In this document: in pieces, positions 46,771 to 59,860 of the stretch | Position numbering within the stretch: position 1 is the first letter of the stretch | Layout: every line of letters begins with the position of its first letter | Assembly: GCA_014281115.1 (NCBI GenBank) | Contig: JACONQ010000004.1 | Location: 806,001 to 870,000 of the forward strand | Direction of reading: 5' to 3' | DNA length: 64,000 nt | Source of the DNA: Laburnicola sp. R22_1 | Taxonomy: Eukaryota; Ascomycota; Dothideomycetes; Pleosporales; Didymosphaeriaceae | Notes under the pieces: generated by a model | Seen by the model: only the letters and a program-made list of their open reading frames with translations | The model's database searches: none | Told to the model about the DNA's origin: nothing | Position numbers and translations under genes: made by a program

Positions 46771-47054
46771 TATATAGAAATTCTAACTAAGGTTAAGTCC
46801 GTACTATATATAGAGAGAAGTAAAATAGAAGGCACTAAAACCTAGTACCTAGCATATAGTAGTAGTAATAAAATATATATAAAATAATAATAATTTTATT
46901 ATTAACTTTCTTTATAGCAGCACTATTAATAGTAGTTAATAGATAGTCTACTATCTAGCATAACTAAGTTATATATTATCTCTTAACTAATAAACTATTA
47001 GAAAGCTATAGTAGACTATAGAGTTGCAACTATAAAAGTAGTGTAGGTAATAGG

Positions 47055-47234
47055 TGTAAGATCGTGGGTACAATGCTTAATCTATCAATTCACTATTAAG
47101 GCGATCCCTTAAAAAAGGAAAGTAGGTCTAAAGGCTACAAGGCCTAAGAAGAAAACTCTGCCCTAGCCAAGGCTAATCTAGGCCAGTCTAGGGAAACTAG
47201 GGGGTTACGCTGCCACAGGGGACGCGTTGTGACA
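47055..47234 (-). repeat. 3' LTR of the chromovirus (180 bp)
   Basis: It begins TGTAAGATCG and ends GTTGTGACA on the plus strand. It differs from its partner at about four places. Three of these are CpA/TpG in this copy and TpA in the other, the RIP pattern. Confidence 0.92.
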
Positions 47235-47335
47235 AAGCTCCCTTTCTTTAAAGGACCTCGACCCCAAGGTCGCCAGAGAAATTTTCCTAAATAGGCTAGC
47301 TAAGCTCGCTTAACTAGCCTATTTTGGACTAGCGT

Positions 47336-47414
47336 ACCTTTATAAGTTTACCCCCAGCCCTGCCGCTCCATCACCTCTTCTCCCCACTCTCCCCACGTCG
47401 CCACTTATTCTAGC
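47336..47414 (+). promoter_or_regulatory. Candidate promoter and leader exon of the antisense gene
   Basis: A TATA-like CTTTATAAG near 47338-47346 is followed by a pyrimidine-rich leader without ATG, then a consensus donor GTAAGT at 47415. A matching branch site (GCTAAC) and acceptor (TTAACAG) lie at 52925-52942, just beyond the inserted Copia. This looks like a 5' untranslated exon whose intron was about 165 bp before the insertion. It is an inference from splice signals only. Confidence 0.45.
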
Positions 47415-47568
47415 GTAAGTACCCCCCGGGATAGGCGCTCCTAGCAGGCTCCAACAAGGGTAATCTAGGGTGATCTAGGCCCCTTCTAGGCCAAAACACC
47501 CCCAATCTGGGGTTTTCTCGGGCCTGTGGGGGGTCCCCCCATGCCCATCTAGGCTTGTCTAGAGCTAA

Positions 47569-47761
47569 TGTGGGCGGGCAGGCATATGAGGCATATGAGG
47601 ACAACAAGCTGTATTGCTATCTGCAGAAAAGAGTGTGTGGAGTGAGGAGTCTACCGAGGAAGAAAGGAGAGGGCGAGAGCTTTATCTTGAGGGTAAGTGG
47701 TCTGTGCACCTGGATGGAACCTTCTACACACACCACCTCTGACGTAAGTCACGTGGCTACA
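47569..47761 (-). repeat. 3' LTR of Copia 2 (193 bp)
   Basis: It starts TGTGGGCGGGCAGG and ends CACGTGGCTACA on the plus strand. I saw no difference from 52732-52924. Confidence 0.95.
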
Positions 47762-47866
47762 CACCCCCCCAGCTGCGGTGTACCCACACCAAAGCTGATG
47801 CTCTGTACTATACTAGAATAGGTAGTAAACGATAGAATCTGAAGTAGAGTCCTCCTTAAGCTTCTT

Positions 47867-50800
47867 CTATAGATATCCTTTGACGTCTTGCATGCCAAGT
47901 TGCCTCATAAAGTCGGTGTGCTTTTGACGTACAAGGCTCTTGGTAAGTCCGTCGGCTGGCATCTGATTAGTAGGCTTCCACTGGACTGATACGCGTCCTT
48001 CTGCCTGCTCTTGTCTCAGCCAGTGCTGGTGAGTGTCGACGTGGCGTAGTTTTGTGAACAGCTTGTCCTTGTCCTTAGTGATGATACCTACTGTCTGTAG
48101 GTTATCGCAGTAAATAGTTGGCGTAATGTCTAGGTCGAATTTAATGTGTTTGAATAGTCGATTCCACGCTTGAAGCTCGCTAGCAGCTGTTGACAGAGCT
48201 AGAAGCTCTGCCTCAGTGGTCGACTTGGTGACCGAGCGCTGTCGTGTCGCTTTCCAGTCGATAGGCATGCTGTAGAGCATGAAAAGGTATCCTTGTGAGC
48301 TCCGCCTGGTCTCTAGGTCGTCTGCGAAAGCTGCATCTGATGCTCCGTAGAACAGTGGTTCTGCACCCCCCAAGCTTGAACTCAGGTAGATGGTTTGACT
48401 GCCACCAGACTCACTATTCGCACAGTCTGTATAAGCTCCTATAGCGAGTCTCTTCGTGCCAATTAGGTACTTCCATACGTGGTATACCGCACTGATATGT
48501 TTCTGGCCTGGGTTCTGTAGGTAACGAGATAGCTCTGAGTGAGCTTGGGCGACATCTGGTCGTGTGTACGTCGCTATGTAGGCTAGCGATCCGACAAGCT
48601 CTTGATAGAGTTTCGTGCGTTGATCGTCTGGCTCCTCTCTACTCAGGCCTAGATGTCCGTCTGCCAGCGGCACTGCTGGGTATTTTGTGCTTCCTTGAGC
48701 AATGTTGTACTTCTTTGCCACCTTGTCAATGAAGCTGTCTTAGAGTAGCCAGATCTTCTTCTGCTTTCTGTCTCGAATGACGCGTATGCCCAGGAACCAC
48801 TTTAACTCTCCCAGATATCGCACGTCGTAGGTTGTTCTCAGCTGTCTGTCGAATAGACGGTATGCGTCTTGATTGCTGCGGGATACAGCTACCACTATAT
48901 CATCAACAAAGAAGAAGACGATAAGCTGGTTACTGCTGTATAGACAGGGCACTCCAGGCACCTGTCTCAGTCCCATCTTCTCAAGCGTTGCAGTGAGATG
49001 CTTGTACCATAGTCGCGGCGCGTCACGGAGTCCGTATAGAGCGCGCTTGAGCTCTAGCAGTTTTCCAAGTTCTTTATCGTATCCTTCTGGACAGCGTACG
49101 TAGGTAAGTCGATCGAGCTCCGCGTTGAGAAAGGCATTGAGTACATCGTACTGGTATAGATCTAGGTCGAAGGCTGCTGCCAGGGCGATAAGGCATCGGA
49201 AGATCTTCGCAGCCAGTGTAGCTGCGTATGTGTCGCCCCAGTCTTGCTGCAGATCTCCTCGGACAACCAGTCGAGCTTTGAATTTGTAGAGGTATCCATC
49301 TTCGTCGAACTTGTACGAGAATACCCACATAAGTGGTAGCACCTCAGCATCTGCTTGCTCAGCGAGCTCTATGGCTCTTCCAAAGCATCTACGGTTGATA
49401 ACACTGTCGATCTCAACTCTGCTTGCCTTCTTGAACTCAGCACCAAATGGATGACGATCCAGATCCTTCCACCTCTTTGGCTCTAGTGGCAGCTGATCAC
49501 GATGTAGTTGAGTCTTCGGCGCCTCGCCAAGTAGCTTTGCTGGTGCTGTGGGGTTGATACAGGCAGCGAATGTTGCCAGATACATGCCAAAGCTCTTTGG
49601 CTTCCAACTTCGCTTACCCTCTATTACGTTCTCCTGTGATAGTTGACTAGCAATCTCCTCTCGTCGCTTTGCGTTGTTTGTTGTTCGATTTAGCTCTTCT
49701 CCCTTTGGAGCTAGAGCGTAGCCTTTCCCCCAGCCTGTGTCGTCTAGTGACTGGCGCAGTCCGTGCTTCTCTAGCGTCTCTTCTGGAGTCATAAGAGCTA
49801 GTTGAGTATCCTCAATCTCAGCCTCGGATTCAGAGTCAAACTCAAGCTCTAGCTCAGGCTTAGGCCTATAGGAATAGTCTTCTGGTGTGGACAGCTGATC
49901 GATCAATATGTCGCTGTGATCAGGCGTCTCCTCGATGTCGAGCACCTCTGCTGCCTCACGAATATAACTCTTCTCTGCGTACTTTTCTTGCTCATCGTAG
50001 AGCTTGCCTCGCAGGAAGACAACGTCTCGAGTTCGTATGACTCGTCCGATTGTCGGTAACCATACTCGAAATATGTTGGTTGAATCGAAGCCTACTAGGT
50101 GGCCGATCAGAGCTCGAGATTTGAGCTTGTCTCCCCTAGGTAGCTTCTCGTTGAGCACATACGCTCTCGCTCCGATCACCTCAAGGTGAGCGACTGATGG
50201 CTTCACTCCCTTGACTTTGGTGTACGGGCATTCCCATCGTATCGCTTCGGTTGGTGTACAATTGAGTAGATATATAGCTGACATAACGCACTCGTTGGCG
50301 TACGCCTTCGGTAAACCTGCGTGTAGGCGTATAGCTCTGCCTCGAATTATAATAGATTTGCCTGCGCGTTTGATGGCTCCGCTCTGAGCTTCTGTAGCTC
50401 TAGCCTCAATAGCAATTCCGAGATCTCTATAGAGCTCTAGCAGCTCGACATATCCAGTCTCCATGTCCAGCCTCACAATAATGACTTGACTCTAGAATTG
50501 CCGCTTTATCTTAGCCAGTAATCGCTTAAAGACCTTTGTTAAAGTAGCCTTTGTCTTATCTGGTATACAGCATCCTTCGTGCCACTTCGTGTATTGATCG
50601 AAAGCATGAAATAGATATCAATCGCCATTGTAGCAGCGCTCTCCTCGCTCTAGGAGCTGTATCAGATCTATGCTAATACGCTCGAACGGTCGAGTCGCTG
50701 GTTCTTAAGGTGGCCTTCAACTGACAATCTTTGTCAGCTTTAACTGTATACACGTCTCACAGTCCTTCCACTTCAGTGCTTGGCCATCCATGATGTGTAG

Positions 50801-52518
50801 GCCTTCAACGTTCTTAGGCAGGTGCTTGATCGCCTCTCTGCCAGCGTGACCCCACATAATATGTGCTTCCTCTGCAGTCAACTGCAGTAGCTTCTTGGGC
50901 TCGTATGAAGGCTTCTTGCGGGCGTATATTAAGGCTGCAAGTAGAGAGCTAGCATCTGGTCTCTCCATGCCTTCAGCATCTATCAACTAGTGTCCGCCGG
51001 TATAGTTGAGCTTGCAAATAACGTTCTTCCAGCTCTTCTGGTATAAGCAGTCTCGTCCTGAGTCGAAATGAATGCCTATTGATCGACAGCGTGACAGGCC
51101 AACGACGTTGGTAAGAAATCCTGGGACATAGGCGACGTATGTGAGCTCTATCTGCTCCGTGCCTCTAGGCGTGTTGATAAGTAGGATAACATCTCCCCAC
51201 TCGTGTATCAATAGCTCTTGATCTCCAGCCTTAATAACTTCACCTGTCCCGTCAGCTCGCTTCTTCCAACTATAGGCTCTGCTGTTGGTGACGTGTGTGT
51301 TTGATCCTGGATCCAGAATCCATCAATTAATCAGACTCGGCTTAACTGTCTGCTTGCTTGCGCAGTCTGAGCTTATTGTGAGCTGCAATACATGACTGTT
51401 TAATACGTCATGCGTAGGTCTGTGATTATCAAACTGTCGAGGTGCTGTCGAGACTGCAGACGCTGCCGGTTCTGCCTAGTCTCTAGTATTTGTCGCGCTC
51501 CCATTCGCTTTGAGTGCTGCCTTTATAGCTCCTCTAAATGATAATCGGCTTGCTATAGCCTTATCAAATCGTTCTTGTATCTTAGGTTTAGGTATCCATC
51601 CTTGAGGCTTGCCCTTCGCTCCTAGATACCAGCAGTCCTTAAATTGATGATTGAGACCATATATACACTTAGGCTTCTTATCTTGAGTCTTTTCTTTCTT
51701 CTCTGTTGCCTGTGGCTCGTCGGTGCTGATGCCTAGTGTGGCAAAGGTGCCGAGCGATGACGCTACTGGTCTCGTCGAACGCCAGTACATGGTGAATTGA
51801 GCGATAAGGTTGTGTATGCTCTTGACAGCCTGTCCCTGGATCTGTGCTTCAAATAGATTGGCTTGCTGAGTAGTTGCCTATGTGTTGTCAAGTCCTTTAA
51901 CTGCGAGTAGAAAATCGCGCTGTGCTCGCGGCGATGTCACGTCGGGTAGGTTCGCTGCCTCGCACAGACGTACAACATGTAGCCACTCATCTAGCCAGGT
52001 ATCAATATTGTTGCGGGGTCGGCTCTGCAGTTGCCGATACTTTGCTAGAAGCTGCAGCTCCTCTCAGCCGTTGATGGGCAGAGGTGCTTCTTGAGCCTCT
52101 TTAGTCGAGCGTACGCTGTATCGTCGCTCTGGATCAGGTGTATGTGGCGGCGGCTGATCGTTCGGCCGATCTCCTGGGTAAAGTCGTCCAACGCTTTCCT
52201 CTTGATCGTATATCTAGCCAAGGCTCGATCGTAGCCTCTCTCCGCCTGCTGGTATCGCTGGAACTCCTCGGTCGTCATGTCTTTCAGCACGACTCCGGTA
52301 TCCTGCTCTGTCCCCTCATAGTAGTGCTCTGGTATCACGGGCACTGGCTCCTCAAGCTATTCGAGTGCCGCCTCGTCAAGATCCGGGTTAACCATAGGCC
52401 AGAGGTGATTTCGATTCGCGCTATCCTTACGTAGGAAGATCCATTCTTCCCAATCTGCCGGCTTCTCAAGTATAACCGTCGTCCTCGTAACCAGTCCATC
52501 TAGCTCAGTCGTAGGCAT
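47867..52518 (-). pseudogene. Copia 2 gag-pol polyprotein, lightly damaged
   Basis: The ATG at 52518 starts MPTTELDGLVTR. Gag has one TAG and a frameshift near 52085, and the rest is one frame to the stop at 47867. Recognisable parts in order: zinc-like CIYGLNHQFKDC (one Cys replaced); protease WILDPGSNTHVTN; integrase zinc region IMWGHAGREAIKHL with CETC; a 578-codon open stretch (48740-50476) holding the integrase C terminus, linker and reverse transcriptase with FFFVDDIVVAV; then, after one TAA (CAA originally), 284 open codons with RNase H (STTEAELLALS). About ten changes would account for all damage, mostly CAA or CAG to stop. Confidence 0.9.
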
Positions 52519-52717
52519 CTTGCTCTATCAGCTCCTAGAAGGGCTCTCTTCAGTAATGGAACGCGTGCTCGAGGCTCGGTAAGGTAGCTTGGTGACGTAG
52601 CTCTGTTGACAGCTTGTCAACAGCTCCTCAGCAGCTCGTCAGTACGCGTGCAGTAGCTAATACAGCGTTTGAAGTCGATAGCCAGGTGCTCAGCAGCTGC
52701 AGTGGTCAAAGTCGACA

Positions 52718-52731
52718 GCCGGGCTCATAAC
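52718..52731 (-). other. Primer binding site of Copia 2 (half initiator tRNA-Met)
   Basis: Directly inside the 5' LTR the minus strand reads GTTATGAGCCCGGC. Its complement GCCGGGCTCATAAC matches the anticodon arm of fungal initiator tRNA-Met (GGGCTCATAACCC), ending three bases after the CAU anticodon. The Copia at 61994 has the same site. Confidence 0.8.
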
Positions 52732-52924
52732 TGTGGGCGGGCAGGCATATGAGGCATATGAGGACAACAAGCTGTATTGCTATCTGCAGAAAAGAGTGTG
52801 TGGAGTGAGGAGTCTACCGAGGAAGAAAGGAGAGGGCGAGAGCTTTATCTTGAGGGTAAGTGGTCTGTGCACCTGGATGGAACCTTCTACACACACCACC
52901 TCTGACGTAAGTCACGTGGCTACA
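52732..52924 (-). repeat. 5' LTR of Copia 2 (193 bp)
   Basis: The partner of 47569-47761, with the same length and sequence as far as I can see. Confidence 0.95.
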
Positions 52925-53056
52925 GCTAACGACGCTTAACAGTCCGCTTCGACGTCGCCCAATCCTTTTTTTCGACCCATTTAACCTCCTCAGAACAGCC
53001 TCGGCCCCAGTCAAGCCCGATCTAGGCCCATCTAGCCCTATCTCACCCTCATCAAG

Positions 53057-54079
53057 ATGTCCGGTACTTTGCAGAGGTTGAAGAAAACGGCCTAGGACAA
53101 TGCACTTATTACAACAAACCCCTACATAACCTGCCTCCAGAGTCTGGTGGACGAGCTCCATAATAACAAAGTTAAGGAAGTTCATCCTTGCCGGTTCTTC
53201 CAAGAGGACCACAGAGCTCTACAGGACCGCAAGACCTACATCTCGGATGGCGTCATCGACCCTAGCCAGGACAATCTCATACTTAAGTGCGTCAAGTGCG
53301 CTAACGCCGGTCAGGATTGTTTCCAGGTAAGTAGGGCCAACCTAGGCATATCTAGGCCTCTCTAGGGTTCTCAAGGGCCCCCTAACATGTTTAGGTTCCC
53401 CAGCGTCTTGTCTCCAAGCTCCAGGCCGCCATGAAGCTCATCCTCCCGGATCCCAGCAGCCTTCATCTCACTGAGGCCGAATTGGACGTGAGGGCGTTAA
53501 AGGAGATTCCTGAGGTCCCCGAGGGTTCCAAGGCCCCCCAGCCTATCTTGCCTCCCCTTAAGGAGGCTTCCATCCAGTTGCGGAAGGTCTTTGAGGATAT
53601 CCAAATATAAGTTTCTCCTATCTAGGCCTATCAAGGCCTCCTAAGGCTAATTTTGGGGTAGCCGTACCAAGGGCAAGTACGCTGGCAACGAGGACACTCC
53701 GCTGCACTCCGGCCGGGCCAACTTTCCCACTGACGGCTTCCTTCCCCTTGGGCTCACCGAGAAGGAGAAGGCTGAGGCCAAGAAGAATTGGAAGCGTTCG
53801 GCGGATGATGACGCGGGCGGTCTCGCGGGTACCCCGCGTAAGCGGGCTAGAGGTGGAGGTAAGGCGGTGGGCAATGCTGATCTCTCTGCTGTTAAGGTAA
53901 TCTAAACTTCCCAAGCCCTATCTAGGGTAATCTAGGCTAACCAATGTCAGGCTCGCTTGAGTGCGCTCGAGGACGCGTTGGACTTCCTAGTTGAGAGGGT
54001 GCGGCCGGGTTCCAAGGCTTCGGAGCGTGCGAAGAGGGATTTCGAGTCGTTGTGGCAGCAGGTGCGCACCTGGGATTAG
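53057..54079 (+). pseudogene. Antisense four-exon gene carried by the chromovirus
   Basis: The exons are 53057-53326, 53404-53606, 53662-53896 and 53951-54079; the introns are 77, 55 and 54 bp. Phases 0, 2 and 0 join into 279 codons including the TAG stop at 54077-54079. Introns 1 and 3 have GTAAGT or GTAATC donors, branch sites (CTAAC) and CAG acceptors. Intron 2's donor reads ATAAGT, a TpG-to-TpA change of GTAAGT. One in-frame TAG (codon 13, probably CAG) breaks exon 1. The protein has a Cys cluster (HPCRFF, then LKCVKCANAGQDCFQ at about residues 76-90) suggesting metal binding. It also has a basic nuclear-signal-like TPRKRARGGGK and a C-terminal helix (ARLSALEDALDFLVERV). I do not recognise the family. 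Confidence 0.75.
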
Positions 54080-54466
54080 GATCCTTGGGCTTTCTAGGCC
54101 TGTTTGGCCCTTTCTGGCGTTTTCCTAGTCTGAGATACCCCCCTTTTAGCGTTTGCTGCCTCCCTTTGGCTTTCGGGAGGGGCTAAGGGCCTTGTTTGGC
54201 CTTGTTTATGGGTCTAGAGACGTAGCTTCGGCCTAGTTTTGCCTTGATTGGGCTTGTTCGTGCTCGGCTCCCTGGTTCATGGATCTTGGACGCCAATTAG
54301 TTTAGGTTCTTAGTAGAGAAGCTTTTCTGTGCTTTGCTCTCATAATCCTTTATATTGCATGTTTGTGACGGTATTTTTGCCTGTTTCACAACACTATTAC
54401 TTCTCAGAGTCCGCGATTGCGTACTATTGCTTGCCTGTCTACCTGCTAGGGCTAGTCTAGGCCAAT
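54080..54466. other. Tail-to-tail spacer between the antisense gene and the chromodomain
   Basis: T- and G-rich on the plus strand, with no frame worth calling. It would hold the 3' ends of two convergent transcripts, the antisense gene and the gag-pol coding part. The TCTAGG-type repeats seen in the introns also occur at its right end (TCTAGGCCAATCTAGGCC). Confidence 0.5.
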
Positions 54467-57400
54467 CTAGGCCTTTCTGGGGTTATCTCTACCCCTCCTT
54501 GTTTTGGAGGGCGACCCCGGCCTCTGCATGGCCTGTGGGCCTCGTTTAGGGCCTGTCTTTACCTCTAACGGGTTTGCGTCCTCCGTGAAGCCTGTGCGCT
54601 TGGAGAAAGCCTTCATCGCCGTCTTGGAAATGTCTTCTGCTGGCAACCATTGGTTTTCTTCGTCACCGTACCCTTTCCACTTCACTTCGTACAGCCACCT
54701 GCCGTTCTCTCTTGTCCTACCCTTGATCCGTTCAACTGGGTATATGTCTGGACCTGTTTGTGGTACCACGACCTTGGGGGACTTTGCTCCCGCTGCATGA
54801 GTCCCTCTGGGGCCGATCGCTCCAGTAGGCACACGTGGAACACTGGGTGGATCTGGAAGTCCTTGGGCAGGCTTAGTTCGTACGCCTGATCCCCTACTCG
54901 GCGTAGAACTTTGTAGGGACCCCAGTACTTGTAGTCCAGCTTCTTTTTCGGCCTTGACGAGGCCAGGTTCCGTGCATTAAGGTAGACCATGTCTCGCACA
55001 GCAAACTCTACCGGTTTGTGCTTGGAGTTGTATGCCTTCGCCTGGTAAGCCTGGGCTTTTGTTATAGTTTCTCGCATGACAGCCCTTATCTGGGCCATTC
55101 TAGTCACGTCAGCGATAGCCTGAGGTGCGTTACCCCTCAATTGGAGTTCTTCAGCCACGCCAGTGGTTGGCAGGTCGTATCCGTACACGGCCTGGAAAGG
55201 CGACTTCCCCGTAGAGCTGTGTACGCTGTTGTTGTACGAGTACTCTGCCTCTGATAGCAACGAGGCCCAATTGTCCTGCTCGTAATTGCAGAAGACTCGT
55301 AGGTACTGCTCTAGCGTCTAGTTCTGCCTCTCAGTCTGCCCATCCGTCTGCGGGTGAAAGGCGGTCGAAAGCAGCCGTTTTGACCCTAAGCACTGCGCAA
55401 AGGTGCTCTAGTATCCTGATGTGAATAGGCTACCCCTGTCCATCACTATCGACCTTAGGGGACTATGGAGCCGTATGACCTCCCGCTAAAAGATCTTAGC
55501 CAGCTCTGCTGCGGTCATGTCCTTGCGAACAGCCATATAGTGGGCTATCTTACTAAAGCGATCTACGATCACTAGTATACTATCATACTTGTGGTTACGC
55601 ACCCTGCTCTTAGGGAGGTCTGTGATCATGTCTATTGTTATATCTTGCCAGGGACCTGTCGGGATCGGTAAGCTGTTGAGTTGGCCATACCGTGCGTGTC
55701 TGGTGGGTTTAACCCTTGCACAGGCCTTGCAAGTCAGGACGTAATCCTTAACGAACTAATAGGCCCCGGGCCACCAGAACTCCCTCTGGACGATATCGAG
55801 TGTCCTTGCGAAACCAAAATGACCTGCTAGCGGATCATCATGACAGCGTCTCAAGGTCTCGATCCTGACGCCGGCCGGCACGTACAGGCGACCGTTGAAC
55901 TGGAGTAGATGACCCTTAATTGGGCTCCACCGCTCTATCCACGGTGGGCGATCCTCTGTGGGGTGCGAGAGACTCGCCCTCACCCTAACCGCTGTTGGGT
56001 CGCTTGTTATCTCTTTGGAGATGGCTTGAAGCAAAGGGTTCTTGAATTCCCCTTGTTGCGCATCCTCTAGGGTAGGTCTTTCCCTAGGTCGCGCAATCCG
56101 CGCGGTGGCTGCCAGCCTAGGCTCTTCCAACCTCTCCTGGGGTGTTTTAGCTCCCCTAAGCTTTAGCTTACTTCGAAGCTCTCTAAGCAGCCTTCCTTAG
56201 GAACTATCCGTCCTATTAGGCCTTTCCGCTCCTTTTGACTTGTAGTTGGGCCTCCTTGAGGGTCCGTCCGCTGGGTTTGTCTTCCCTGGGCGGTGTCTGA
56301 TCCCAAAATTGAATGAGGCGAGCCATTCAGCCCATCGGGCCTGGCGTTGGGTCAGGACTTTAGTTGTCATGAACCCCTGTAGGTTGGCATGATCTGTTAG
56401 GAGCTCTACCTGCTCTACAGTGCCTCTAGTGTTTAAAGGCTTCTACTATTGCAAGCAGCTCTCCGTCGTGCGTGTCGTAATTACGCTCAGCCTGGCTTAT
56501 CTTGCGCGAGTAGAAGGCAACTGGGTGCTATTGTTCCTTTCCTTGGGGCCCTGGGTGTGGTTGACTTAAGATGCCAGATATCGCGTATCTAGAGGCGTCG
56601 GTCTCCACCCTTAAGGGCAATTCAGGGTTGAAATGGGCTAGTAAGGGCCTACTGGCAAAGCTTTGCTTTAGTTGCTTAAACGCAGCCTAAGCCTCGCTTG
56701 ATAGGGTAATAGGTACTGATTCCTCCTTACGTTGTCGGTGACCACCACGGGCTGACCCTTCTGGTCGCTGGGTGAGTACGTGCAGGGGGCTTGCGACCCT
56801 TGAAAACCCTTTAATAAATCTTCAGTAGTAATTGGCAAAGCCTAGGAAAATTCTTACATCCCGTACCAACTTAGGCTCTGGCCACTCCTGTATGCTCTTG
56901 ACTCTGTCCCCTTCCATATGCACGCCCTCCGGGCTTACTACAAACCCTAGGTAGCCTACCTCTTAGGTGTGGAACTCACACTTGGAGAGTTTGGCGTACA
57001 GCTTGTGCTGGATAAGCCGATCTAGCACTGTCTTCACGTGTTCAACGTGTTCCTCCTCACTCTGGGAATATATAAGGATGTTGTCCAAGTATATAATGCA
57101 ATAGACGTCGAGTAAGTCCGACAGCGCACTATTAATATAGCTCTGAAAGACCGCGGGGGTGTTAGTTAACCTAAAGGGCATTACTGTGTATTCGTAGTGG
57201 CCATATCTAGTCCGGAATGCTGTCTTCCATTTGTCGCCTGCCTTGATTCGTATACAGTGATAGGCGTCCCTTAGGTCCAATTTAGTGTATATGACAGCGG
57301 ATCCCAACTGGTCCAGTGACTCTTGGATTAGTGGGAGTGGGTAACGGTTTTTCACGGTCACCGCGTTTAGTTCACGGTAATCTACGCATAATCGCAATCC

Positions 57401-58250
57401 CCCGTCCTTCTTCTTTGCGAAAAGGATCAGTGCTCCTACTTCTAATTTTGAGTGGCGTATCCAGCCTCTTTTGAGGTTCCTCTTGATGTACTCCTTTAAG
57501 ACCTGTGCCTCCGGCGCTAATAGGCTATAGAGCGGTCTAAAGGGTACCTTCTTGTCTGCCTTAATGTTAATAGACATCTTGTGAGGCCTGTGGTCCGCTA
57601 GTAGGGCGGCGTCCGCTTCTGAGAAGGCTTCTTCGAACCTCCCTTGGTAACCCTTGGGTAGAACGGTCTTGTTCGGACCGGATTGGCCTAGGCTGACTGC
57701 ATACATGACAAAACAGTCATTGTCAGCGTCCTTAGTGGTATTCGCGAATTGTTGTGGCCCCTCTATGGCAACCTTCTGGAATTTGCGCTTGCCGTTGTTA
57801 AATCGCAATGTACGAGCGGTGAAGTTGGGTAGTGGGTTCTATTTGGTCAACCAGGGCATCCCCAGCACTATGTCGAACCCTTCGATGTCCCCTACGACGA
57901 ATTCGTCCGACCCAGCCCAGGTTTGCCCACGGCTGTCCGTTATCGCGTAGGCTAGCTTGGTCTGGCCTTAAACCTTTAATTTAACTCTGTTTAGGGCCTT
58001 GTAAGTCTGGTTTGTATTCGCTTTTAGTTAGACTGCGACCCTCTCTACCATCCTGGTACTGACGAAGTTGGCCTCCGCGCCGCAGTCTACTAGGGCCCTC
58101 ACTTTAAAGGAGCCCGCTGCTGTTTGGATAACCCCTTCTAGGGCGATCAGGGACCCTCCAGCCTTGCGGGGGCCTCTTGCCTCTAAGGTGGCTGCGGCGA
58201 GCAATCTTTGTCCCTCCGTGTATATGACAGAGCCTGTTGGTCTGAGGGAT
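54467..58250 (-). pseudogene. Chromovirus pol polyprotein, RIP-inactivated
   Basis: Reading on the minus strand: protease VRALVDCGAEANFVS; reverse transcriptase (open from 57808 to 56963) with DLRDAYHCIRIK; and the catalytic box YLDNILIYS, where the second Asp has become Asn. RNase H has VETDASRYAISG. Integrase has HDDPLAGHFG with CKAC, then DITIDMITDLPKS, MDRGSLFTSG and TDGQTERQN. The integrase C terminus is open from 55260 to 54682. A one-base shift near 54820 separates it from the chromodomain (YPVERIKGRTRENGRW, WKGYGDEENQWLPAEDI), which would direct integration to marked chromatin. Many Gln or Trp stops lie between. Confidence 0.88.
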
Positions 58251-58279
58251 GGATGACCTAGGGCTTGTTTTTTCCCGCC

Positions 58280-59637
58280 TCTGTCTTTTGCTTTGGGTAG
58301 TTGTCTTTGTAGTGCCCTTGCTTGTGACAGTAGAAATAGTTGTTCTTTTCCTAGTCTAGCAGTAATTGTGCCTTGCGACGCTCATCCTGTTCCTTACGTT
58401 GCGGGTTATGGCGCCTCTGGCCTAGTCTAGTGTTGTTTGACCTAGATTGTTTCTGGCTGGTTGTGCCTCGCCCGTTGTCCTCTTGGGCCTCCTTATCGTC
58501 ATCCTTTTGCTTTCGCTTGCCTAGCTTCGGCCCTTGGATAACCCGCTAGTGTTGGTTGGCCGTCTCCTCTAGTTAGATGAGGCTGGTCTACCACTGTGGT
58601 TGCTATTAGAGCCTCTCCACTACTTAACTATCTAGAGCGGAGAAGAAATCGCTAATATGCTGATTGTCATGATCATTTAAGGCATAATTAGGGTTAGTCT
58701 CTTCCCACTAATCCTTGAGATAGTTTAGGAGTTTAGTTGGGGTCTAATGACCCTGCTTTGCGTTCTTAATACACTAACAAGCCTCTTGTTCTCTTTCCCA
58801 GCTCAATTCTAGGGTGTCCACCATAGTCTGCTTCATTAGCTTCCACGTTACCTTACGCTCGCGTTTGCGCTTAGGGATCTCCTAGACTACTCTGTCCTAG
58901 AAGTTGCGTTGCGTGTCCCTAAGATAGCGGTGTGCGAACCTTGTCTGGGCTAGATTAGTGCTGAGGGCTGGTGCGTATTGAATGTAATCTTCGCAGCCTC
59001 TTGCCTAGGCGTTTAGTTTCTTCTGGCCTCTTCCTTTGAATTGGGGAGGCTCTGGCGGTTTTGGTAGTTGTAGGTCTAAGCTGGCTGTTGTCGTTTGGGG
59101 TGGGACGATAGGCGCGATGCTAGTCCTTAGGGGCTTCCTCCTGTCCTTTTTGCTTGGTTGCTTGCTCTTTTATCCGCCCTTCTTACGCGGAGGGGAGTCC
59201 TCTTTAGGGCTGCTAGGCTCCTCTGACGAGTTGCTGCTATTATTAGGGTCGCTTGTATCCTCTTTAATAGTTTCGGGTGTTAGTTGCCTGCCTTTGCCCT
59301 TGTCCTTCTTCGTCGCGGCTTTGGTGTTGGTCGCAAGGGTTAAGGTTCTTTGTTCGTTATTGTCGGGTCCTATTTCGACCTACAGGATCTTGAGTTGGTC
59401 CTGTAAGGCTTTAATAGCCTTGCGCTTCTTCGCGATCTCAATTTCTTGCTTGAGTTCCTCTTCCTGACGTTGTATCTGAGCTTCTTTAGCGCTTAAGGCT
59501 GTTTGTCCTTTGTCCGTGCCAGTTTGGCCTGGTCCAGGGTCCTCGATGCTGGCGTGAGGTTGCCCCTCGCTGGTTACTGTTGCTCCGCTTGGGCTGGCTA
59601 CAGAGGCCAGGCGTTGGCTTCGACGGATGTCGCTTAT
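58280..59637 (-). pseudogene. Chromovirus gag
   Basis: The likely start is 59637-59635, where ATG has become ATA, followed by SDIRRSQRLASVAS. A Glu/Lys-rich coiled region follows (KEAQIQRQEEELKQEIEIAKK), then a Ser/Lys linker and the capsid region with several RIP-type stops. Near 58300-58340 the zinc knuckle reads YFYCHKQGHYKDNY. The first and last Cys of a CCHC box appear to be Tyr, which fits G-to-A change. Gag cannot be made from this copy. Confidence 0.75.
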
Positions 59638-59662: not shown

Positions 59663-59672
59663 TAAGGGATCG
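59663..59672 (-). other. Candidate self-priming site of the chromovirus
   Basis: Three bases inside the 5' LTR, the minus strand reads CGATCCCTTA. Its exact complement TAAGGGATCG occurs inside both LTRs on the minus strand (59723-59732 in the 5' LTR). No TGG-type tRNA site is present. In Tf1/sushi elements the first bases of the RNA pair with such a site and prime synthesis. The match is 10 bases. Confidence 0.5.
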
Positions 59673-59675
59673 TAT

Positions 59676-59855
59676 TATAAGATCGTGGGTATAATGCTTA
59701 ATCTATTAATTCACTATTAAGGCGATCCCTTAAAAAAGGAAAGTAGGTCTAAAGGCTACAAGGCCTAAGAAGAAACCTCTGCCCTAGCCAAGGCTAATCT
59801 AGGCCAGTCTAGGGAAACTAGGGGGTTACGCTGCCACAGGGGACGCGTTGTGACA
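59676..59855 (-). repeat. 5' LTR of the chromovirus (180 bp)
   Basis: It begins TATAAGATCG on the plus strand (TG decayed to TA) and ends GTTGTGACA, followed by the ATAGG duplication. It carries the RIP changes relative to the left copy. Confidence 0.92.
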
Positions 59856-59860
59856 ATAGG

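Follow-up and report, generated by a model that had tools for sequence, protein, structure and literature searches.

What is a multi-exon gene doing inside a retrotransposon, on the strand opposite to gag-pol? The question is raised by a 64,000-nucleotide stretch of the genome of the ascomycete Laburnicola sp. R22_1 (contig JACONQ010000004.1, positions 806,001 to 870,000; the whole stretch is called the window below), in which a minus-strand chromovirus, bounded by long terminal repeats (LTRs) at 47055-47234 and 59676-59855, hosts such an antisense gene. We conclude that the gene is real, is resident in the element and is of a known kind, and that the array of short TCTAGG repeats accompanying it is an unexpected, new observation.

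In the window, four plus-strand exons join in phase (270 + 203 + 235 + 129 = 837 nt), separated by introns of 77, 55 and 54 bp:

53057..53326, plus strand: exon 1, 90 codons, with a Cys cluster and, in the window copy, TAG at codon 13
53404..53606, plus strand: exon 2, followed in the window copy by the donor ATAAGT
53662..53896, plus strand: exon 3, with a basic nuclear-signal-like stretch
53951..54079, plus strand: exon 4 and stop, with a predicted helical hairpin

The gene sits between pol and the 3' LTR, opposite the gag-pol strand and converging with pol; the usual spacing is ~460 bp from the 3' LTR to the gene start, and ~390 bp from the gene end to the pol end. An earlier note on this DNA, made from the letters alone, had proposed a multi-exon gene antisense to gag-pol within a chromovirus, and the LTRs, the domains and a check of the exons bear this out; the exon and intron coordinates, lengths and phase that it gave were exact on recomputation. 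Its statement that the exons join in perfect phase into 278 codons holds for the phase but not for an open frame, as the window copy is damaged: codon 13 is an in-frame TAG, and intron 2 begins with the donor ATAAGT.

The same genome (63.9 Mb, 26 contigs) was searched at the DNA level with the antisense gene, and 40 of 48 candidates were scored (L-numbers, such as L009 and L017, denote loci of this genome). An ATG start and introns of 77, 55 and 54 bp are found in all 40 aligned copies, in agreement with the earlier argument that introns would survive transposition in an antisense gene, and exon lengths are unaltered in 32 of them. Open spliced copies exist, albeit just two of the 40: in L009 and L017, the frame runs uninterrupted through 278 codons and each of the three introns has GT-AG ends. 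Judged by their LTRs, which are identical in L017 and one indel apart in L009, both are recent; these open copies have target-site duplications as well as near-identical LTRs, and therefore the introns survive transposition. The decay of older copies is mostly of the repeat-induced point mutation (RIP) type.

Two further lists, the best 40 matches to the chromodomain and the best 40 to the LTR-leader region, are both independent of the gene. The gene lies beside every one of the 40 chromodomain matches, at 390-393 bp in 37 cases and at 568, 568 and 969 bp in the others, for which the gene end was set from partial protein matches. It likewise lies beside all 40 LTR-leader matches, at 277-285 bp in 39 and at 5643 bp in the window, the latter distance being due to the insertion of a nested copia element. 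Copies of the element lacking the gene, with a clean junction, would have pointed to a one-off host insertion; there are none in either set of 40. The earlier label of 'passenger' does not stand: the gene is a fixed resident of the element and not a one-off capture. We consider it very probable, on sequence grounds, that it is a resident chromovirus gene between pol and the 3' LTR, antisense, with three coding introns, and mobile with the element, introns included.

When the genome was searched with the exon-1 protein, 49 matches were found, comprising 46 at 52-100% identity and three weaker ones at two loci. On inspection, both weaker loci turned out to be relatives of this element that are old and AT-rich and align beyond the gene; a separate family carrying the gene in this genome is ruled out for these two loci. 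L055 (C11:232900-236900), an old and AT-rich relative of the element, has a GC content of 0.21 and still aligns over the LTR/leader, gene and pol region.

The element itself is a Ty3-type retrotransposon with a chromodomain, that is, a chromovirus, as assigned by its domains, its LTRs (176/179 identical) and the 5-bp target-site duplication ATAGG that flanks its ends. Pieces of its open reading frames (ORFs) match the Pfam RVT_1, Tf2-1-like SH3 and Chromo domains, and the following features are recognized:

47050..47054, no strand: target-site duplication ATAGG, left
47055..47234, minus strand: chromovirus 3' LTR, 180 bp, 176/179 identical to the 5' LTR
47238..47253, minus strand: polypurine tract adjoining the 3' LTR, assigned by composition and position
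54470..59490 (5' limit approximate), minus strand: chromovirus gag-pol, in pieces split by stops and frame changes
within 54470-54832, minus strand: chromodomain
within 54685-55317, minus strand: integrase C-terminus/SH3
within 56963-57808, minus strand: reverse transcriptase (RT)
59663..59672, minus strand: primer-binding site CGATCCCTTA, able to pair with TAAGGGATCG of the LTR; candidate self-priming type
59676..59855, minus strand: chromovirus 5' LTR
59856..59860, no strand: target-site duplication ATAGG, right

A primer-binding site complementary to the start of the element's own RNA is the self-priming trait of Tf1-type elements. The 10-nt complementarity of CGATCCCTTA to the LTR was found in all three other copies for which it was computed, a candidate self-priming arrangement if the LTR match is the RNA start, and in the window copy the CGATCCCTTA sequence is likewise present after the 5' LTR. 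The 3' LTR is at the expected place in 38 of the 39 other copies. Exact 5-bp duplications flank five of the seven elements examined (window, L009, L015, L017 and L018); the 5' side was fetched for six copies, of which four have exact duplications, one (L014) agrees in 4/5 bases, and one is without an LTR where expected. At L011/L050, there is no 5' LTR at the expected distance, and an LTR-type TCTAGG pair is present ~11 kb away from the gene (C4:2104684), a sign that a further insertion may be nested there. Beside the window element, the segment 41008-45511 contains a direct repeat of 164 nt (71%) along with two pairs of inverted repeats (93-94%).

Upstream of its coding exons, the antisense gene has what appears to be a promoter and leader of its own, interrupted in the window copy by the copia element:

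47289..47324, no strand: 36-bp palindrome, nearly perfect, just ahead of the antisense TATA box
47339..47346, plus strand: TATA-like box TTTATAAG of the antisense gene, unchanged in 9/9 displayed copies
47370..47414 (5' limit approximate, set from the TATA position), plus strand: putative non-coding leader exon, donor GCGTAAGT
47415..52942, plus strand: putative leader intron, with a branch-like CTAAC and a CAG acceptor ending at 52942
47569..52924, minus strand: nested copia element, LTRs 47569-47761 and 52732-52924, duplication GCTAA at 47564-47568 and 52925-52929
52943..53056, plus strand: remaining 5' untranslated leader

A separate leader exon with the donor GTAAGT at 47415 had been thought likely, and this is supported by the displayed copies, in which the donor GCGTAAGT is unchanged in 9/9, the branch-like CTAAC is present in 8/9 and an AG acceptor in 9/9. 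It is probable that the antisense gene has a TATA box and its own leader exon, with a predicted transcript start and predicted splicing. The near-palindrome carries one or two changes in three of the nine displayed copies, and its 16-bp core TAAGCTCGCTTAACTA occurs 32 times genome-wide. The copia element has identical 193-bp LTRs, an RVT_2 domain and ORFs in pieces; its insertion point is the branch-like site of the putative leader intron, and L009 and L017 have uninterrupted sequence (an empty site) at the corresponding position.

Coding by the antisense gene is favoured by the 278-codon open spliced frame in two recent copies, by the GC content at the three codon positions (0.61/0.42/0.68 in L009) and by the fixed geometry. 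The predicted product is a protein of 278 residues and ~31 kDa, with an isoelectric point of 9.0. In L017, it has six Cys residues, at positions 23, 26, 45, 78, 81 and 88, the first of which is missing from L009, and a basic nuclear-signal-like stretch is encoded in exon 3. When exon 4 was modelled alone from the single sequence, a helical hairpin was predicted with a pLDDT (predicted local distance difference test score) of 88.

In the non-coding DNA of L017, no 6-mer is as common as TCTAGG, which occurs 15 times in 1237 bp, always forward and never reversed; the antisense-gene exons of that copy contain none and 2610 bp of its pol contain one. As the motif was picked after being seen, the fair control is a shuffle scored for any 6-mer: in 1000 dinucleotide shuffles of L017, the commonest 6-mer of any kind had a mean count of 5.3 and a maximum of 12. 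Sites are found in the LTR, the leader, every intron and the spacer, all of these except intron 2 having pairs at 10-bp spacing, and the pooled non-coding self-similarity peaks at lags of 10 and 20. In the window copy, the sites are as follows:

47177..47192, plus strand: TCTAGG pair, 10-bp spacing, 3' LTR
47464..47490, plus strand: TCTAGG triplet, spacing 10 and 11, leader intron
47548..47553, plus strand: TCTAGG, leader intron
53021..53026, plus strand: TCTAGG, 5' untranslated leader
53351..53366, plus strand: TCTAGG pair, 10-bp spacing, intron 1
53621..53626, plus strand: TCTAGG, intron 2
53921..53936, plus strand: TCTAGG pair, 10-bp spacing, intron 3
54093..54098, plus strand: TCTAGG, spacer between the converging genes
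54456..54471, plus strand: TCTAGG pair, 10-bp spacing, spacer end/pol end
59798..59813, plus strand: TCTAGG pair, 5' LTR

Counted from the LTR to the pol end with the exons included, forward motifs number 11-19 in each of the 39 other copies and reversed ones 0-3. Genome-wide, the pair pattern TCTAGGNNNNTCTAGG occurs 273 times, versus four times for the reversed pattern, the number being raised by the copy number of the element. Among the 100 TCTAGGNNNNTCTAGG places listed, 81 fall within element spans, and five of the 19 outside them are in LTR-type sequence, the other 14 not. The nested copia element has single TCTAGG sites only. Outside the family, TCTAGG decamer repeats with other spacers were seen at L056, L057 and L058, these loci including a GC-rich one (C1:899436).

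These observations lead us to propose that the antisense RNA would be spliced and translated into the basic 278-residue protein, with its Cys cluster, nuclear-signal-like stretch and C-terminal helical hairpin, and that this protein would work in the nucleus to regulate the element in an accessory role. Binding to the TCTAGG arrays of the LTRs, the leader, the introns and the spacer would let it tune the transcription or silencing of its own family. We infer a regulatory or DNA-binding role, to which the repeated non-coding motif lends indirect support. That the product is a nuclear accessory regulator, with the TCTAGG repeats as the best candidate DNA targets, is held tentatively, its chances being a little short of even. 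A more specific version, in which the nuclear protein of the antisense gene and the target arrays would form a two-part system of the VANC kind, countering silencing or setting expression within its own family only, is in our opinion unlikely.

Several observations weigh against the proposed regulator. No Pfam, NCBIfam or PDB match was found for the product; in Pfam, neither open copy matched a family up to E 10, and the window product after the stop had no match up to E 1. Nor was a homologue found in the protein database with either the full product or exon 1 as query, where a control search with an RT fragment of the element returned 7531 relatives, three of the 120 listed carrying fungal names; spliced fungal genes may be under-represented in this database. 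Because there is no domain or homologue match, the case for DNA binding rests on charge and Cys residues, and exon 1, when modelled alone, gave a poor and uninformative prediction (pLDDT 53). The motif may instead be used by a host factor or in RNA processing, its link to the protein being a proposal, and its single orientation would also fit an RNA signal. The signal at lag 10 is not clean: the LTR, taken by itself, places this lag 10th of 38, and exon 2 by itself places it first; some decayed copies have 1-3 reversed motifs. Additionally, the 14 listed pairs that are neither in LTR-type sequence nor inside element spans show that the pairs are not confined to the family; five of them (three loci) were inspected by eye and are seemingly short isolated repeats, one of the outside loci having ORFs of >120 aa.

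The evolution of the gene among the copies does not help the proposal either. In 19 young copies, non-RIP changes comprise 37 synonymous (S) and 58 nonsynonymous (N) substitutions, versus 36.6 and 58.4 expected, so that no purifying selection on the antisense gene was detected (N/S relative to expectation 0.98), and internal and terminal branches are alike (63 N and 32 S versus 243 N and 141 S). The pol pieces of the same 19 copies (457 codons) gave a ratio of 0.95, with 51 S and 91 N versus 49.3 and 92.7 expected, in a pooled set to which an RT piece of 11 codons contributes 8 N and 0 S. The within-family test is without power because the pol pieces look equally unconstrained; the check for coding constraint suggested by the earlier note accordingly gave no signal, in a comparison that cannot decide the matter, and N/S as a proof of constraint was dropped. 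In both copies with an open gene (L009 and L017), pol, as far as it was fetched, falls into several ORFs. Moreover, L010-L013, four near-identical copies at different sites, have a common 1-bp deletion in an exon-2 C run, which means either that copies whose gene is frameshifted have spread or that the assembly erred at the homopolymer; if the deletion is real, the protein is not needed in cis.

Of the other explanations, the one closest to the proposed regulator retains a resident accessory gene but has its protein act elsewhere, for example in the nuclear import of the pre-integration complex or as a partner of Gag or integrase, the TCTAGG motif serving host transcription or splicing factors. 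An RNA-processing role for the motif is possible given its presence in all three coding introns and the leader, all 15 motifs of L017 face one way, as they would for an RNA signal, and the published products of antisense genes include, in the relevant passage of PMC7264820, a nuclear one of unknown role. The motif, however, is also present in the LTR and in the spacer between the gene and pol, and the 10-bp pairs are found mostly in the chromovirus family, which argues that it is no general splicing signal of the genome; we regard this explanation as rather unlikely. Alternatively, it may be the antisense transcript that matters and not the protein, the RNA pairing with the genomic RNA, and feeding RNA silencing or limiting copy number, while the frame decays. 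Such a role for the antisense transcript has been proposed, according to a passage in PMC7264820, and it would be in keeping with the two open copies among 40, the lack of a substitution signal of constraint and the apparent spread of the frameshifted L010-L013. Yet, an antisense RNA needs no spliced frame of 278 codons, exact exon lengths are kept in 32/40 copies, the stops go with RIP-type decay, and pol is equally unconstrained by the same test, and we find the idea quite improbable.

The repeats could, on the other hand, be no sites at all but a by-product of RIP, or of its avoidance. The TCTAGG unit contains few CpA or TpG dinucleotides; the introns of the open copies have TpA/ApT of 2.3-2.4 and (CpA+TpG)/(ApC+GpT) of 0.60-0.69, as against 0.91-0.93 and 1.13-1.25 in the exons; and C is depleted before A in the non-coding DNA (odds ratio 0.45, p 3e-5). 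Third-position G after T in the gene also leans the RIP way (odds ratios 0.51 and 0.40; p 0.32 and 0.11). In contrast, the antisense gene shows no depletion of third-position C before A (odds ratios 1.25 and 1.32), and in the pol ORFs such depletion is never significant (0.33 to 1.30, lowest p 0.057); therefore, no general RIP scar is shown. Repetition at 10 bp is not expected from RIP either, and we rate this origin as highly improbable. Least probable of all is that the gene is a captured host gene, a passenger without function for the element, for which one may cite the lack of a known relative and, if the L010-L013 deletion is real, dispensability in cis. The gene lies beside every scored match to the element, however, and no separate host copy was seen: 43 of the 46 exon-1 matches at 52-100% adjoin one of the scored matches to the chromodomain or the leader, three (C24:224934, C24:1879992 and C5:1794048) fall outside the best-40 lists, and for the three weaker matches, at two loci, the alignment with the element extends beyond the gene.

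How, then, does the gene relate to known systems? Zhao et al. in 2011 reportedly described brtn, an antisense gene of the Boty-like retrotransposons of Botrytis cinerea. Passages of the literature describe Boty as a fungal gypsy-type element with gag-pol and a CHROMO domain (PMC4227169), place brtn between pol and the 3' LTR (in a review, PMC7264820), mention an antisense gene of this type in Sclerotinia also and note a Monilinia transcript resembling BRTN (PMC5987419). As far as these passages go, the present gene is like brtn in being an antisense extra gene between pol and the 3' LTR of a fungal gypsy-type element with a chromodomain, and brtn of Boty is the closest known antisense gene, likened by description only; the passages on brtn in the same four sources (PMC8365987, PMC7264820, PMC4227169 and PMC5987419) mention neither splicing nor motif arrays.

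In plants, the aORF-3R genes include gene23 of Grande, RIRE2, ORF4 of Retand and PvRetro13 (PMC7264820), and gene23 is stated in the part of that review concerned to have its own promoter upstream and a nuclear product. The present gene resembles them in its antisense position between pol and the 3' LTR, and, like an aORF-3R gene, which should be present in all or most copies of a family, it is found beside 40/40 best chromodomain matches. Unlike the plant genes, it has three coding introns and a likely leader intron, belongs to a fungal chromovirus, and matches neither Transposase_28, SMC nor any other Pfam family. As for VANC, VANC21 of the Arabidopsis VANDAL transposons is described, in the passages concerned, as binding a nine-base motif, with loss of methylation (PMC5735166 and PMC10398659). 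From those passages, the likeness lies in a short motif of one family, often in tandem, in intronic, intergenic and terminal non-coding DNA, together with an element-encoded candidate protein, which is basic here. The differences are that an LTR retrotransposon and not a DNA transposon is involved, that the motif is TCTAGG at 10 bp and not YAGTATTAY, that there is no Pfam match here and that the motif number varies only between 11 and 19 per copy.

HBZ of human T-cell leukaemia virus type 1 (HTLV-1) has spliced forms and acts in the nucleus. Its gene, like the present one, is antisense and lies close to the 3' LTR of an element that replicates by reverse transcription; unlike HBZ, the present gene has its TATA box outside the LTR, and its product has no bZIP match (Pfam, up to E 10). 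We file the gene as an antisense additional gene of a chromovirus, with several introns and an adjoining motif array, and not as a member of the VANC or HBZ groups. None of the literature searched described arrays of this kind alongside an antisense gene in an LTR element of a fungus.

What the antisense additional genes do in LTR retrotransposons is not known, according to the passage of PMC7264820 that deals with them. Here, such a gene is tied to a concrete candidate target motif, which can be checked by a simple binding assay. Binding of the motif by the protein would open the role of antisense additional genes to testing, and self-regulation by sequence-specific means, seen in plant DNA transposons, would then also be a property of retroelements, here in a genome that shows RIP-type decay; were the VANC-kind reading true, this would be a convergence with VANC across kingdom and transposon class. 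Moreover, the retention of introns in 40/40 aligned copies provides a clear natural case in which spliceosomal introns persist when they are antisense to the RNA of a retroelement.

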